Source of the DNA: Pseudomonas sp. G.S.17
Lineage (GTDB): Bacteria; Pseudomonadota; Gammaproteobacteria; Pseudomonadales; Pseudomonadaceae
NCBI RefSeq assembly: GCF_038096165.1
Contig: NZ_CP151076.1
Span: 5,701,501 to 5,765,500 of the forward strand
Length of the DNA stretch: 64,000 bases
Direction of reading: 5' to 3'
In this document: piece by piece, positions 32,652 through 38,912 of the stretch
How positions within the stretch are numbered: the first letter of the stretch is position 1
Layout: every line of letters begins with the position of its first letter
The notes under the pieces: generated by a model
What the model was told of the DNA's origin: nothing
The model's database searches: none
Seen by the model: the letters and a program-made list of their open reading frames with translations, nothing else
Translations under genes and position numbers: made by a program

Positions 32652-34586
32652 ATGAGCAAAGCGGATGCATTCGCCCAGGCGGGCAAAACAGCGGTGTTGC
32701 AGAACATCCACGGCACCATGCAGTTCCTGCAAAAATTCCCGCCATTCAACCAGATGGAGAGCGCTCATCTCGCGTATCTGGTCGAACAATGCCAGCTGCG
32801 TTTTTACGCGGTGGACGAAAGCATCATCAAGCCTGCTGATGGTCCAGTAGAGCACTTTTATATCGTCAAGCAAGGACGTGTCGTCGGCGAGCGGCCGCAC
32901 ACCGCCAAGGGCGGAACCGAAACCACCTTCGAAATCACCACCGGCGAATGCTTCCCGCTGGCCGCATTGCTGGGCGAACGCGCCACGCGCACCGAGCATC
33001 TGGCGGCCGAAGACACCTTCTGCCTGCAACTGAACAAACAGGCGTTCATCAAGCTGTTCGCGCTGTCGACCACCTTCCGTGACTTCGCCTTGCGTGGCGT
33101 CAGCAGCCTGCTCGACCAGGTGAACCAGCAAGTCCAGCAGCGCGCGGCGGAAACCCTTGGCACCCAGTACTCACTGAACACCCGCCTTGGCGAGCTGGCC
33201 ATGCGGCATCCGGTCATGTGCAGCCCGCAAACGCCGCTGCGTGAAGCCGTGAAACTCATGCATGAACAACAGGTCGGCAGCATCGTGATCGTCGATGCGC
33301 AGCAAGCGCCGCTGGGGATTTTCACTCTGCGCGACTTGCGCGAGGCGGTGGCCGAGATCGATACCGACTTCAGCCAGCCGATCCAGTCGCACATGACCCA
33401 AGCGCCGTTCCACCTCAGCCCGGACGCCAGCGCGTTCGATGCCGCCATCGCCATGACCGGTCGGCACATCGCCCACGTGTGCCTGGTCAAGGATGGGCGG
33501 CTGTGCGGCGTGGTGTCCGAGCGGGATCTGTTTTCCTTGCAGCGGGTCGACCTGGTGCATCTGGCGCGGACCATCCGCAACGCGCCACGCATCGAAAGCC
33601 TGAGCAACCTGCGCGGCGACATCGTGCAGTTGGTGGATCGCATGCTCGCCCACGGCGCGTCCTCGACCCAGATCACCCAGATCATCACCCTGCTCAACGA
33701 TCACACGGTGTGTCGTGTGATCGAGCTGACCCTGGAAGAAAAAGGCGACCCAGGCATTCCGTTCAGCTGGTTGTGTTTCGGCAGCGAAGGCCGCCGCGAG
33801 CAAACGCTGCACACCGATCAGGACAACGGCATTCTTTTCGAAGCCCGGGACTTTGCCGAAGCGACGCAGATTCGGGCGCTGCTGCTGCCGATTGCCGAAC
33901 GCATCAATCAGAGCCTGGCGCAGTGCGGGTTCACGCTGTGCAAAGGCAATATCATGGCGGGCAACCCGGAGCTGTGCCTGTCACGCGTTGAATGGTCCCG
34001 GCGCTTCGCCGCATTCATCCGCGAAGCGACACCAGAGAACCTGCTGGCCTCCAGTATTTATTTCGACTTGCGCGTGGTCTGGGGCGACGAGCACGGCTGC
34101 GACCAGTTGCGCCGTAGCGTGCTGGAACAGGTCGGCGACAATCGGTTGTTCCAGCGCATGATGGCCGAGAACGCCCTGCGCCAACGCCCGCCAGTGGGGC
34201 GCTTCAAGGATTTCGTGCTGGCCCGCAAAGGCAGCGACAAAGACACTCTGGATCTCAAGACCCAAGGCCTGACACCATTTGTCGACGGTGCCCGCTTGCT
34301 GGCGCTGGCCAATGGCATCGAAGCCAATAACACCCTGGAACGCCTGCGCCAACTGGTGGAGCGCGAGGTGATCGACCGGCTGGACGGCGCCGCGTACGAA
34401 GAGGCTTACCACTTCATCCAGCAGACCCGTATGCAGCAGCATCAATTGCAGAGTCGCCAGAACCTGCCGTATTCCAACCGGATCGATCCGGACACCCTCA
34501 ATCATCTGGACCGCCGCATCCTGCGCGAATCCCTGCGCCAGGCCCAACGTCTGCAAACCAGCCTGACCCTGCGCTATCAACTATGA
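32652..34586 (+). CDS. cNMP-binding/CBS/DUF294 nucleotidyltransferase-like protein
   Basis: 644 residues. Residues ~25-145 form a cyclic-nucleotide-binding domain (FYIVKQGRVVGERP), ~180-300 two CBS motifs (MRHPVMCSPQTPLREAVKLM; HIAHVCLVKDGRLCGVVSERDLF), ~330-480 a DUF294 nucleotidyltransferase domain with the GSEGRREQTLHTDQDNGI active-site motif as in GlnD, and a C-terminal DUF294_C helical region. It overlaps the exonuclease gene by four bases, a pairing seen in other proteobacteria, often near acetate permease genes, which are absent here. The nucleotide substrate and target are unknown. Confidence 0.88.
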   Translation: MSKADAFAQAGKTAVLQNIHGTMQFLQKFPPFNQMESAHLAYLVEQCQLRFYAVDESIIKPADGPVEHFYIVKQGRVVGERPHTAKGGTETTFEITTGECFPLAALLGERATRTEHLAAEDTFCLQLNKQAFIKLFALSTTFRDFALRGVSSLLDQVNQQVQQRAAETLGTQYSLNTRLGELAMRHPVMCSPQTPLREAVKLMHEQQVGSIVIVDAQQAPLGIFTLRDLREAVAEIDTDFSQPIQSHMTQAPFHLSPDASAFDAAIAMTGRHIAHVCLVKDGRLCGVVSERDLFSLQRVDLVHLARTIRNAPRIESLSNLRGDIVQLVDRMLAHGASSTQITQIITLLNDHTVCRVIELTLEEKGDPGIPFSWLCFGSEGRREQTLHTDQDNGILFEARDFAEATQIRALLLPIAERINQSLAQCGFTLCKGNIMAGNPELCLSRVEWSRRFAAFIREATPENLLASSIYFDLRVVWGDEHGCDQLRRSVLEQVGDNRLFQRMMAENALRQRPPVGRFKDFVLARKGSDKDTLDLKTQGLTPFVDGARLLALANGIEANNTLERLRQLVEREVIDRLDGAAYEEAYHFIQQTRMQQHQLQSRQNLPYSNRIDPDTLNHLDRRILRESLRQAQRLQTSLTLRYQL

Positions 34587-35296
34587 ATCTGTTTGAATGG
34601 CTGCGGCCGCGTCCGCCAAAACCGACCCTGGAGCACCGCGACAAACAGCGTCTGGCCAACCTTGCGCCCGTCGCGGCGCTCAGCGAAGATTCGCTGCGCA
34701 AGCAACGCTGGGTGGTGTTCGACCTGGAAACCAGTGGCCTGAACATGAATCGCGATCAGGTGCTATCCATCGGTGCCGTGGTGATCGAAGACGGCGCCAT
34801 CGACCTGAGCCAACAGTTCGAACGCACCTTGTTGCGCGTCGACCACAAGCTGAGCCCGGCGGTATTGATTCACGGGCTCGGGCCTAGCGCCATTGCTGCC
34901 GGCAGTGAACCGGTGCAAGCGCTGCTGGATTTCATGGAGTTCGTCGGCAACAGCCCGCTGCTGGCGTTTCACGCGCCATTCGATCAGCACATGCTTGGCC
35001 GGGCCTTGAAGGAAAGCCTCGATTACCGCCTGGAGCAGCGTTTTTTCGACGTGGCGGAAATCGCTCCGATGCTCTTCCCCCAGGCGAATCTGCGCCAGGC
35101 CGGACTGGATGACTGGACCGCCTTCTTTGGCCTGCAAGCCGAAGAACGCCACAACGCCAGCGCCGACGCCCTGGTGACCGCCGAACTGGCGATGATCCTC
35201 TTCAGCCACGCCCGCCGCCAACAGATCGACAGCCCCGCGCAGCTGGAGCAGTGCTTGAGCCAGTGGCGTCGGCGGCAGCGGAGTCATTCGTTTTAA
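34583..35296 (+). CDS. DnaQ-like 3'-5' exonuclease
   Basis: 237 residues. DEDDh exonuclease motifs are present: Exo I WVVFDLETSGLN, Exo II LAFHAPFDQHML, and Exo III with RHNASADALVTAELA. About 45 residues precede the domain. It starts within the last four bases of the DUF294 gene, so the two are translated together. It resembles the Pol III epsilon family but is not the replicative dnaQ by context. Confidence 0.88.
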   Translation: MNLFEWLRPRPPKPTLEHRDKQRLANLAPVAALSEDSLRKQRWVVFDLETSGLNMNRDQVLSIGAVVIEDGAIDLSQQFERTLLRVDHKLSPAVLIHGLGPSAIAAGSEPVQALLDFMEFVGNSPLLAFHAPFDQHMLGRALKESLDYRLEQRFFDVAEIAPMLFPQANLRQAGLDDWTAFFGLQAEERHNASADALVTAELAMILFSHARRQQIDSPAQLEQCLSQWRRRQRSHSF

Positions 35297-35300
35297 CCTG

Positions 35301-35553
35301 CCGCGTTATCGCTCTTCGCGAGCAAGCTCGGCTCCCACAGGTCCAGCGGTCCATTGGAGCGAGGCTTGCCCGCGAACCCGGCGCCTCGGTGCACCAGACC
35401 TACCGCGTTATCGCTCTTCGCGAGCAAGCTCGGCTCCCACAGGTCCAGCAGTCCAGCGGTCCGTTGGAGCGAGGCTTGCCCGCGAACCAGGCGCCTCGGT
35501 GCACCAGACCTGCCGCGTTATCGTTCTTCGCGCGAGAGCCTCGCTCCAACGGG
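35301..35553. repeat. composite REP array, three units
   Basis: The block CCGCGTTATCG recurs at about 35301, 35403 and 35513. The units again join a CTTCGCGAGCAAGCTCGGCT arm to a TTGGAGCGAGGCTTGCCCGC arm through GGTCCAG, the same hybrid structure as at 20546-20821. The second unit carries a small duplication (CCAGCAGTCCAGCGGTCC). Confidence 0.9.
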
Positions 35554-35584
35554 CATAGTTGTTAACAATCCTTGTTAACCAGTC

Positions 35585-36119
35585 TGTGGATAACATGTTC
35601 GCTCATCCCCAAAACCCATACAATCCGCCCTCTCCAGCCCACTGATCGAATTCTGACCAGCGTAAACCCTTGAATTACCGAGCTTCCTGCTGTGGATAAA
35701 CATCCGCCACTCATCAATAGTTGCCCACAAAGTCTGTTGGCGCTTCTGTGGACAAGTTGTTCGCTAACCGCTGCACGCCTTTAATTACTTGCCCTCCAGA
35801 CAATCGTACAAAAAACAATCAATCGCTGTCGAATAAGCAGCATCCCGGTTTGTCCACCGCTAAATACAGCCATTTCAGTAGTTTTCCACAGATGAAACCC
35901 GATCCCCGCAAAGTTGCCCCCAAACTCTGTTGGCGCTTCTGTGGATAAGGTGTTTGCGGTCCTCTACACACCTTTAAAACCGTGGCCTTTCGGGGATTGA
36001 TCAAATAATAGGCAATAGCTGTCCAGAAGTGACAATCTGGATAAGTCACGGTTTTTTATTAGGTTTTTTGGGGCTTCAGACGGGTTTCCCACAAGGACTG
36101 CGGGCGACTCTGTGGATAA
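35585..36119 (+). other. cluster of co-oriented DnaA boxes in a degenerate repeat
   Basis: Four exact TGTGGATAA sites (the complement of the DnaA box TTATCCACA) lie at 35585, 35691, 35940 and 36111, all in the same direction. Near-matches are TGTGGACAA at 35747 and, reversed, TTTTCCACA at 35882 and TTGTCCACC at 35849. Three boxes sit in a longer repeat with GTTGCCCACAA ahead and TGTTGGCGCTTC directly before the box (35719, 35912, 36084). The stretch is visibly richer in A and T than its neighbours and has no credible gene. dnaA and gyrB are not nearby, so it is probably not oriC. Confidence 0.7.
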
Positions 36120-36141
36120 GTTGTTGGTATCTACGTATAAC

Positions 36142-36163
36142 GTGTGGGAGCTCGCTCCCACAC
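36142..36163. repeat. short REP-like palindrome downstream of gbcA
   Basis: GTGTGGGAGCTCGCTCCCACAC lies 20 bases after the gbcA stop codon and could end its transcript. It looks like a collapsed TGTGGGAGCGAGC REP pair. Confidence 0.65.
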
Positions 36164-36182
36164 TGGGCCTATCAGATTTACC

Positions 36183-37481
36183 TCACTCGTGATTAACCGC
36201 TACACCCTTCAGATACGGCGCCGGTTCAGCACCGAGGTTTTCCAGCATGCGGGCGCTGTACCAGTCGATGAAGTTGACCACGCCGAACTCGTAGGTCTTG
36301 GAGTACGGGCCTGGCTGGTAGGCGGTGGAGTTGATCCCGCGCTGGTTTTCTTCGGCCAGACGGCGGTCCTGGTCGTTGGTGGCGTCCCAGACTTGCCGCA
36401 GCCGCGCGACGTCGTAGTCAACGCCTTCCACGGCGTCCTTGTGCACCAGCCACTTGGTGGTGACCATGGTTTCCTGGGCGCTGATTGGCCACACGGTGAA
36501 CACGATGACGTGATCGCCCATGCAGTGGTTCCAGGCGTGGGGCAGGTGCAGGATGCGCATCGAACCCAGATCCGGATTCTTGATCCGGCCCATGAGCTTC
36601 TTGCTGCCTTGCTTGCCGTCCATGGTCATGGACACGGTGCCCTTGAGCAGCGGCATGCGCACGATGCGGTTACGCAGGCCGAAGCTGGCGTGGGCATAAG
36701 GAATCTGTTCGGCATCCCAGGCAGCGGCCGACTCGGCGACGTGGTCCTTGAACGACTGGGTGGCGCGCGGATCGGTGACGTCATCCCATTCCAGCAACGT
36801 GTTCAGCAGTTCCGGGTGCGACGCGTTGCAGTGGTAGCACTCGCGGTTGTTTTCCAGCACCAGCTTCCAGTTGGCCTTTTCCATCAAGGTGCTTTGCACT
36901 GCCACCTTGGTGTTTTCCATGTCGTAGGGTTCCATGTAGTGCTTGAGCGTCTGCAGGAACTCATCGATGGCCGGAGGGTTTTCCGCCAGGCAGATGAAGA
37001 TGTAGCCGCCAGCGGTCTTGACGTTGATCGGCTTGAGGCCGAATTTGCTCATGTCAAAATCGCTGCCCATCTCGCTGCCGGCGAACAACAGACGGCCGTC
37101 CAGCTCGTAGGTCCACTGGTGATAATGGCAAACCAGCTTGGCGACCTTGCCTTTCTCACCGGTGCAAAGCCGCGAGCCACGATGGCGGCAGACGTTGTGG
37201 AACGCATTCACCACACCATCGGAGCCGCGCACGATCAGCACTGGATTCTTGCCGATCTGCAACGTCAGGTAGTTGCCCTTGGCCGGGATCTCGCAGGTCA
37301 TGCCTGCAATCAGCCACTCTTTGTGAAAGATTTCCTGCATGTCGATTTCATGCAGCCGCTCATCACTGTAGAAAGGCTGCGGCAGCGAATACGTGCGCTC
37401 GCGATTCTGCAGCATTTCGGCAGTGGCCTTACGTGCAGGTTCCAGCGGATCGCCCAAGCTCAAGGTTGCGGTGACGTCCAT
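36183..37481 (-). CDS. gbcA: glycine betaine monooxygenase, Rieske oxygenase subunit
   Basis: 432 residues from the ATG at 37481 (MDVTATLSLGDPLEPARKAT), with GAGGA nine bases upstream; the 25-residue extension is not favoured. The Rieske cluster is bound by CRHRGSRLC (C-x-H) and CHYHQW (C-x-x-H), and the C-terminal ring-hydroxylating domain has the mononuclear-iron region NNRECYHCNASHPELL. With GbcB it demethylates glycine betaine to dimethylglycine and formaldehyde. It is divergent from gbcB, and in P. aeruginosa both are activated by GbdR. Confidence 0.96.
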   Translation of the reverse strand: MDVTATLSLGDPLEPARKATAEMLQNRERTYSLPQPFYSDERLHEIDMQEIFHKEWLIAGMTCEIPAKGNYLTLQIGKNPVLIVRGSDGVVNAFHNVCRHRGSRLCTGEKGKVAKLVCHYHQWTYELDGRLLFAGSEMGSDFDMSKFGLKPINVKTAGGYIFICLAENPPAIDEFLQTLKHYMEPYDMENTKVAVQSTLMEKANWKLVLENNRECYHCNASHPELLNTLLEWDDVTDPRATQSFKDHVAESAAAWDAEQIPYAHASFGLRNRIVRMPLLKGTVSMTMDGKQGSKKLMGRIKNPDLGSMRILHLPHAWNHCMGDHVIVFTVWPISAQETMVTTKWLVHKDAVEGVDYDVARLRQVWDATNDQDRRLAEENQRGINSTAYQPGPYSKTYEFGVVNFIDWYSARMLENLGAEPAPYLKGVAVNHE

Positions 37482-37591
37482 CGTTGAAGTCCTCATGACC
37501 GTGTCTTCTAACGGTCGGCGAATGTGGCTGATACGGTTCTTTGCAACGGTTTGCACGCAAGGCGACGATTGTTTTATCGCTCATGCTCAAG

Positions 37592-37645
37592 AATAGTTTT
37601 TTTGGTAACTATTGAGTGGCGAGTGTGAAGTTCGGCGCAAACTTC
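37592..37645. promoter_or_regulatory. two dyads in the gbcA/gbcB divergent promoter region
   Basis: AATAGTT-N8-AACTATT at 37592-37613 and GAAGTT-N7-AACTTC at 37627-37645 sit near the middle of the 330-base gap. They are candidates for activator or nucleoid-protein binding. I cannot match them with certainty to the GbdR site. The right third of the gap shows nothing else clear. Confidence 0.4.
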
Positions 37646-37811
37646 GCCTTATCCATGGGCGACATGGCCGAATCCGTTCCCGACGCGCGAACCCCGGCAG
37701 CAAAGGGCTGGTCGCGATAAGTACGCCGATGTCGCTGATAGGTAAGTGGGCTGTCTGCGCCTTACGCAGAATTCGCATCATGAGGCCGACAGTCGGCCGT
37801 GGAGATTCAGC

Positions 37812-38912
37812 ATGTCCCAAAGCTTCCTCAGCCCGGTAAATACCCAGACATGGGCCAACGGCCGTCACCTGGTTCGCGTCGTCAAAGTGATTCAGGAAAC
37901 CTGGGACGTGCGCACCTTCTGCTTCATGGCCGACCAGCCGATCCTGTTCTTCTTCAAGCCCGGCCAGTTCGTGACCCTGGAGCTGGAAATCGACGGCGTG
38001 CCGGTAATGCGCTCTTACACCATTTCCAGTTCGCCCTCGGTGCCGTACAGCTTCTCGATCACCATCAAGCGCGTGCCGGGCGGCAAGGTTTCCAACTGGC
38101 TGCACGACACGCTGCATGAAGGCCAGGAACTGGCCGTCCACGGGCCGGTGGGCCTGTTCAACGCCATCGACTTCCCGAACCCGAAGATTCTCTACCTCAG
38201 CGGCGGCGTCGGCATCACGCCGGTAATGTCCATGGCGCGCTGGTTCTACGACACCAACGCCAACGTCGACATGGTCTTCGTGCACAGTGCGCGCTCGCCC
38301 AAGGACATCATTTATCACCGCGAGCTGGAACACATGGCGTCGCGGATCGATAACTTCAGCCTGCATCTGGTCTGCGAAAAACACGGATTGGGTGAGCCCT
38401 GGGCCGGTTATCGCGGCTATCTGAACCAGAAAATGCTGGAACTGATGGCCCCGGACTTCCTCGAGCGCGAAGTGTTCTGCTGCGGACCGACGCCGTACAT
38501 GAACGCAATCAAGCGTCTGCTGGAGAGCAACGGCTTCAATATGGCGCAGTACCACGAGGAATCCTTCGGCCAGACGCCGCCGGAAGCCCGCGCCGACGCC
38601 GTGGAACAAGCGGAAATCGCCGCCGACGCACCAGAAGTCGATGCCTCGGAGCTGCATCAGGTGGAATTCACCGACACCGGCAAGAGCATCCGCGTGGCAC
38701 CGGGCGAAACCGTCCACGCCGCAGCCGCCAAACTCGGCCTGATGATCCCCAAAGCCTGCGGCATGGGCATCTGCGGCACCTGCAAGGTCATGAAACTAAG
38801 CGGCGAAGTGGAAATGGAACACAACGGCGGCATCACCGACGAAGATGTCGAAGAAGGCTACATCCTGTCGTGCTGCAGCGTGCCCAAGGGTGATGTGCGG
38901 ATCGAGTATTAA
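37812..38912 (+). CDS. gbcB: glycine betaine monooxygenase, reductase subunit
   Basis: 366 residues from the ATG at 37812, with GGAG eight bases upstream. Domains in order: FAD-binding (RSYTISSSPS), NAD-binding (LYLSGGVGITPVMSMARWF), and a C-terminal plant-type 2Fe-2S ferredoxin (ACGMGICGTCKV and a later cysteine pair in ILSCCSVPKG). It passes electrons from NAD(P)H to the Rieske centre of GbcA. Confidence 0.96.
   Translation: MSQSFLSPVNTQTWANGRHLVRVVKVIQETWDVRTFCFMADQPILFFFKPGQFVTLELEIDGVPVMRSYTISSSPSVPYSFSITIKRVPGGKVSNWLHDTLHEGQELAVHGPVGLFNAIDFPNPKILYLSGGVGITPVMSMARWFYDTNANVDMVFVHSARSPKDIIYHRELEHMASRIDNFSLHLVCEKHGLGEPWAGYRGYLNQKMLELMAPDFLEREVFCCGPTPYMNAIKRLLESNGFNMAQYHEESFGQTPPEARADAVEQAEIAADAPEVDASELHQVEFTDTGKSIRVAPGETVHAAAAKLGLMIPKACGMGICGTCKVMKLSGEVEMEHNGGITDEDVEEGYILSCCSVPKGDVRIEY

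Follow-up and report, generated by a model that had tools for sequence, protein, structure and literature searches.

What a compact group of DnaA boxes does on a Pseudomonas chromosome, at a distance from the replication origin, is the question raised by this locus. The window, by which we mean the whole stretch of 64,000 nucleotides that was analysed, corresponds to C1:5701501-5765500 of a 6.24 Mb chromosome, and the array of boxes occupies C1:5737085-5737619, inside an 886-bp gap between an exonuclease gene and a gbcA-like gene.

Arrangement of the boxes in the gap next to gbcA

Exact TTATCCACA boxes start at 35585, 35691, 35940 and 36111, the four of them on the minus strand and in non-coding DNA, and one-mismatch boxes lie at 35747 and 36036 (minus strand) and at 35882 (plus strand), as a sequence-only reading of this DNA had described. 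Its estimate that chance would give far less than one exact box in such a stretch also agrees with the genome, in which TTATCCACA occurs 123 times and the same pattern read backwards, used as a control, 22 times; at the genome's own density of exact boxes, about 0.01 is expected per 535 bp. Over the window as a whole, 15 boxes with at most one mismatch were counted against 5.6 expected, a number reached in 0 of 100 shuffles. Gene calls and Pfam agree in placing the locus, as that reading did, between the exonuclease gene (34583..35296, plus strand, Pfam RNase_T) and a gene with Rieske and ring-hydroxylating alpha domains (36183..37496, minus strand), whose 3' end borders the array and which, following the naming in the sequence-only reading, we take to be gbcA. 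Since the two genes converge on the array from either side, neither of them starts at it. Directly adjoining the array, at 35301-35565 of the window, there is also a 53-bp repeat in three copies, which resembles the REP elements of Pseudomonas.

The repeat analysis returned a 42-bp element in four copies, at 35558, 35720, 35913 and 36084. The degenerate repeat announced earlier is thus real, with four copies and not the three given for it (35719, 35912 and 36084); the accompanying claim that each of those three carries an exact box did not hold, because the copy at 35720 carries TTGTCCACA and the exact box at 35691 therefore falls outside the repeat. A consensus built from 18 aligned arrays, and then from 237 units of 55 arrays, describes a rigid unit that reads, in this order, TTTTTTGATCA, TG.AAGCC, GGCCT.CAG, GCGAACA.C, TTATCCACA, 6 bases, CCAACAG, 3 bases and TTGTGGGCAA. 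In terms of DnaA boxes, a strong box III is followed after 3 bp by a weak box II in the same direction and after a further 5 bp by a weak box I that is opposed to the other two, with starts at 0/12/26 (14 and 12 bp apart).

Four such units are reported in the window, all on the minus strand, by R1, a sequence-only model made from 72 gbcA-linked units. Unit 1 (36081..36129, E 3.3e-8), which adjoins gbcA, consists of the core only, with box III at 36111-36119 (exact), box II at 36099-36107 (5/9), the facing box I at 36085-36093 (7/9) and no Fis-type site at the expected place. Unit 2 (35910..36016, E 8.8e-23) has box III at 35940-35948 (exact), box II at 35928-35936 (4/9), a facing box I at 35914-35922 (6/9) and a full putative Fis-type site (6/6) at 35999-36013, whose centre is 58 bp from box III. 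The boxes of unit 3 (35718..35824, E 1.5e-22) are at 35747-35755 (III, TTGTCCACA), 35735-35743 (II, 4/9) and 35721-35729 (I, 7/9, facing), and those of unit 4 (35555..35660, E 4.9e-13) at 35585-35593 (III, exact), 35573-35581 (II, 5/9) and 35559-35567 (I, 6/9, facing); both units have a putative Fis-type site of 5/6, at 35806-35820 and 35644-35658, respectively. The values for boxes I (6-7/9) and boxes II (4-5/9) are matches of sequence only. The extra exact box (35691..35699, minus strand) falls in the interval from unit 4 to unit 3, at 106 bp from the unit 4 box, and in relatives boxes are again found 104-107 bp from the last unit. Near unit 2, TTTTCCACA (35882..35890) stands on the opposite, plus strand, and a box-like word in this position, at offset 47 (-), recurs after the second unit in relatives.

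The surroundings of box III were scored at 208 places, each an offset with an orientation. Over the 237 units, which like those for the consensus and the spacing counts had been picked by exact or TT[AG]TCCACA boxes, the facing position at +26 matched a DnaA box best (5.8/9) and the +12 position came third (4.3/9). In first units these two positions rank first and second among the 208, and among second and third units the +12 position, that of box II, falls outside the five best. When sites were chosen by their flank only, 189 of 224 had a box with at most one mismatch exactly where box III is expected, a count that includes 72 units used to train the flank profile. At its AT-rich start, the unit agrees with the Fis consensus GnnYAnnnnnTRnnC, as given in the accessible part of PMC8682772. 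With an AT-rich centre, this consensus has 119 full matches in 57 arrays against 7.5 in shuffles that preserve base composition only, and 113 of the 118 matches with a downstream box have their centre 58-59 bp from box III. IHF sites, counted against shuffles of the same kind, were not enriched in the arrays (3 exact versus 1.2). The genome also has a gene for Fis (59% identity over residues 21-96). From one box to the next, the distances fall into groups at 149-150, 160-161, 171-172, 181-183 and 192-194 bp, and also at 55-56, 65-66 and 104-107 bp. A Rayleigh test on the 26 distinct spacings peaks at 10.5 bp (R 0.56, p ~3e-4, neighbouring values not being independent), and this spacing of the boxes in whole helical turns points to a protein-DNA complex.

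Conservation in Pseudomonas and spread in the class

The sequence-only reading had named a search of related Pseudomonas for conserved boxes next to gbcA as a check, and conservation is what was found. In 80 Pseudomonas loci fetched via gbcA, many relatives show three to six exact boxes downstream of the gene, in one direction and at recurring distances, and units are present near gbcA in 66 of the 80, a count that includes the loci on which R1 was trained and that comes from related genomes, which are not independent. Three of these 66 (L021, L030 and L032) have their units on the other side of gbcA, seven or more of them in L030 and L032, and L015 has a single weak unit match. The other 14 loci, including that of the closest gbcA relative (L001, 98%), have no unit within the stretch covered around gbcA, and other genes follow gbcA there wherever ORFs were listed. 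The interval separating gbcA from the array looks like a spot for insertions, with ORFs of differing size after gbcA (L009, L010, L013, L001, L012, L016 and L070) and, at some of these loci, the array beyond these ORFs. Within the stretch covered, only 2 of the 80 loci have the exonuclease gene beyond gbcA, and this gene is therefore not considered part of the system. A chance cluster is ruled out by conservation together with box spacing. Two further candidates were also discarded: the gap has no near match in the plasmid collection, as a plasmid origin might, and no known RNA family of Rfam matched.

In the genome itself, R1 reports eight units at E up to 1.1e-6, the next match being at E 0.025. 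Besides the four in the window, there is a pair at C1:5566788-5567094, flanked by UPF0029 and ABC transporter genes, and another pair at C1:737447-737927, with an SDR gene on one side and, on the other, a 342-aa ORF whose family is unknown; the Fis-type site of these four units is 6/6 in two and 5/6 in two, always at -58. Among the stretches fetched, three more genomes have the second type of locus next to UPF0029, and one has the third type next to both the SDR gene and the 342-aa ORF. Only the three loci accepted by R1 were counted as members, and not the other box clusters of the genome, many of which are inside ORFs. A pair of exact boxes in opposite directions, with starts 259 bp apart and inside ORFs (L103:2839-3106, that is C1:5769838-5770105), recurs beyond the array in many relatives.

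The position of the cluster away from oriC, which had been proposed from the letters alone, agrees with the map of the chromosome. The dnaA gene is at C1:30-1532 and the presumed oriC, with six exact boxes, at C1:6237179-6237451, and proximity to oriC was rejected, as both are about 500 kb from the array. Over 14 genomes, the distance between array and dnaA is 6.2-9.2% of the chromosome, with a median of 8.4%. These 14 belong to a set of 19, in which no array of this type was listed for G003, G066 and G080, and G057 (array and dnaA on different contigs) and G052 were left out of the distances. Adjacency to gbcA was given for 5 of the 14 and seen in 7 of the other 9, and in 2 gbcA was not within the 10 kb fetched. 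The distances from oriC in E. coli are 10% for datA, 21% for DARS2 and 33% for DARS1. In our genome, exact TTATCCACA boxes are concentrated around dnaA, none being more than 2.5 Mb away among 100 of the 123 that were listed, and many of those near the origin are inside ORFs.

A short pattern has matches in 57 of 59 genus genomes and in 95 of 119 family genomes, with 1 and 2 matches in the respective backwards controls; some of these matches are found repeatedly at places distant from dnaA and could be coding. R1 has matches in 40 of 116 order genomes (E <=1e-4) and in 87 of 232 class genomes (E <=1e-3), and at 27 distant loci 18 matches are clear of ORFs of at least 90 aa and 9 overlap one partly or wholly. 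The facing pair, TTATCCACA followed after 0-20 bases by TGTGGATAA, was found in 159 of 370 class genomes, the backwards control giving 2. Among the 75 matches listed (a hand count, in which two overlap others), the spacer is 5 in 71 and 17, with the same layout inside, in 4, and no other spacer occurs. Thirty of the facing-pair loci were examined, chosen by the pair alone without considering the flank; 29 of them are intergenic, and 76% of random places fall in ORFs. At these loci, a third box of at least 6/9 is found at -12 in 28 of 30, with a maximum of 8 at the other 28 offsets, and 20 of the 60 core-orientations have a Fis-type site (5/6 or better) centred at -71 from box II, which is -59 from box III, against at most 3 at any other offset. 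Full Fis matches number 5 at -71, 1 at -72, 3 at -60 and 3 elsewhere.

In distant class genomes, priA accounts for 9 of the 20 flanking ORFs tested (one per locus, not a random choice). A DARS-like element adjoins this gene, which encodes the replication restart helicase, at L160, L161, L163, L167, L169, L172, L174, L180 and L133, and the literature search found no paper on a DnaA box upstream of priA. A further core was found in our own genome at C1:4530223-4530245, with exact boxes I and II and a spacer of 5 (L100:1224-1258, that is C1:4530223-4530257), a weak box III where one is expected and, at -59, a 5/6 Fis-type site. This core is 1.7 Mb (27%) from dnaA, adjoins an FKBP-type isomerase gene and is not reported by R1. 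Therefore, having a core with exact boxes elsewhere, the chromosome may carry both the classical and the array type.

Comparison with DARS1, DARS2 and datA of E. coli

DARS sites promote the release of ADP from ADP-DnaA, and their deletion delays initiation; the core of DARS1 is accompanied by some 50 bp of stimulating flank. datA acts on DnaA by promoting its ATP hydrolysis or by titrating it. According to the accessible portions of the papers cited here, box I of DARS is opposed to boxes II and III, with a spacing common to DARS1 and DARS2 (PMC5742627), and the active part of the E. coli DARS is the facing box pair (PMC10380432). DARS2 uses Fis (PMC4245941) and needs IHF (PMC4245941, PMC5742627), datA needs IHF between its DnaA boxes (PMC4585315), and the conservation reported for DARS in those portions concerns E. 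coli-related species (PMC4245941, PMC8682772, PMC5742627). A search of titles and beginnings of abstracts, mostly of open-licence papers, found no description of a datA or DARS counterpart in Pseudomonas, and the portions of PMC8203912 and PMC4285127 at hand contain none of such a site.

Profiles of the Pseudomonas units were compared with 170.5 kb of MG1655, comprising the regions of DARS1, DARS2, datA and oriC as well as two further stretches. With the full gapless profile (72 units), DARS1 came first, at 2.2 bits versus -16.0 for the next, a score reached nowhere in 4.64 Mb of Markov sequence. The 36-bp core profile again put DARS1 first (16.5), with a core of 14/12 spacing in the DARS2 region next (13.8), and gave the datA region a lower score than either; the scores of the two DARS cores were reached at 1 and 5 random places, respectively. 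R1 with filters off also placed DARS1 first in the 170.5 kb, but at 11.4 bits versus 8.5 for the next, and with default filters it gave no E. coli match. The same model aligns the conserved Pseudomonas flank to the DARS1 flank, but in the E. coli set neither a flank-only profile nor the core without its strong box singled out DARS1.

As in the array, the three boxes of DARS1 are intergenic and start at 0/12/26 in the same orientations, and DARS1 shares with the Pseudomonas consensus the word TGCAAGCC 43 bp before box III. It differs in being a single copy, in the bioD-uvrB gap and 33% from oriC, with box II as the strongest, whereas the array has four tandem units, with box III as the strongest, at 6-9% from dnaA; the Fis-type site at -59 that accompanies the array is found in neither E. 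coli DARS. DARS2, beside mutH, is like the array in having a core with 14/12 spacing, by which we took this core to be the published one, and in its reported use of Fis (PMC4245941, in part). It has one core and needs IHF, whereas the array has four units, which we do not file as a DARS2 because IHF sites are not enriched. datA is also a box cluster outside oriC and near it in relative distance (10% versus 6-9%), but its boxes are described as flanking an IHF site (PMC4585315, in part), and the array units differ from datA in their third, facing box and their Fis-type site. Boxes III and II, being in the same direction and 3 bp apart, likewise resemble the double DnaA box, preferred by DnaA in vivo in E. 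coli as far as the accessible text of PMC11317965 goes; unlike that element, the pair in the array belongs to a longer unit that is repeated and that also holds a third box, facing the pair, and a Fis-type site.

By its layout, the array belongs with the DARS sites. The proposal of the sequence-only reading, a non-origin DnaA cluster of the datA or DARS kind, is supported by the conservation of units near gbcA and by their distance from dnaA, and it is the DARS alternative that gains directly, because orientation and spacing match the E. coli core and a profile made from Pseudomonas alone finds DARS1. The comparisons also suggest that DARS-type sites occur widely across the class and include a third element, at constant distance, which the E. 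coli sites lack.

Possible recharging or holding of DnaA at the array

We lean towards the reading that this stretch is a tandem, Fis-coupled, DARS-type array of four units near the origin, probably one that recharges DnaA, a function read from the sequence comparisons. From the same analysis we infer that DnaA and Fis bind at the array and that nucleotide exchange takes place there. DnaA would bind the strong box III and, cooperatively, the weak boxes II and I of each unit, so that on the facing boxes it would stand head to head, an arrangement by which, in E. coli, ADP-DnaA loses its ADP. Fis, which is abundant in growing cells, would bind at its fixed place 58 bp away and aid the formation of the complex and, since the units line up along one face of the helix, several complexes could work jointly. 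The freed DnaA would then reload ATP and could start the next round at oriC. Counted against a recharging array are the weakness of boxes I and II, the strong box being III, the low rank of the box II position in second and third units, the lack of enrichment of IHF sites, a place nearer to the origin than those of DARS1 and DARS2, the missing Fis-type site in unit 1 and in both E. coli DARS, the profile and R1 comparisons that did not pick out DARS1, and the 14 gbcA loci with no unit in the stretch covered.

The weak boxes, the IHF result and a distance from the origin like that of datA also make a titrating or datA-like role a serious rival to recharging. On this explanation, which we consider unlikely and nevertheless weighty, the array would be a high-capacity DnaA sink near oriC in which DARS-derived units serve in the opposite sense, by titration or by datA-like inactivation; copied soon after initiation, it would lower free or ATP-bound DnaA. 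Each unit with its strong box, the extra exact box, the weakness of the facing boxes I and II and a location at 6-9% from dnaA, like datA and unlike DARS1 and DARS2, are consistent with such a sink, as is the higher density of exact boxes towards dnaA, which the available part of PMC12371093 also reports for E. coli. The core with strong facing boxes at C1:4530223 could, in that case, do the recharging. A sink, however, could do without a fixed three-box layout, a Fis-type site at constant distance and helical phasing, and all three are conserved here, and a datA-like layout, with the IHF needed between the datA boxes (PMC4585315, in part), was rejected as IHF sites are not enriched.

The remaining explanations fit the data less well. 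Control of transcription of a neighbouring gene by DnaA and Fis, which we regard as improbable, would recall the position of DARS1 and DARS2 upstream of uvrB and mutH, and the similar elements beside priA in distant class members (9 of the 20 flanking genes tested, a non-random choice) would accord with it, but no neighbour in the window has its start at the array, the far-side neighbour changes (exonuclease in 2 of 80 loci) and several species have other genes between gbcA and the array. It is most improbable that the locus is a second or remnant replication origin, in spite of the clustered boxes with AT-rich words alongside, given that an oriC with six exact boxes adjoins dnaA, that units recur at three loci and that no clear GC skew switch was seen in the window in 2-kb steps, a weak test at such a scale. 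We give equally little credit to a structured RNA or a mobile repeat in which box-like words occur by chance; the units are repeated and have other repeats directly alongside, but no Rfam match was obtained in 34000-38000, the units are at only three genome loci, their helical-turn spacing points to a protein-DNA complex and the profile recovers DARS1.

Returning to the DARS-type array, we tentatively propose, as a possibility that we put below the reading of the locus itself, that the class has an extended DARS made of three boxes and a Fis-type site 58-59 bp from box III, of which the E. coli sites would be worn-down versions, and that pseudomonads made of it tandem, helically phased arrays near the origin, in which the strong box moved from II to III. 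If so, what was a single recharging site would now be a DnaA station close to the origin and gated by growth, with a classical DARS-like core at a greater distance (C1:4530223), and this station possibly holds DnaA instead of recharging it. The array offers exact, conserved and deletable sites, with which the timing of chromosome copying in pseudomonads becomes directly testable; its deletion is predicted to give fewer origins per mass if the array recharges DnaA and more if it titrates it.
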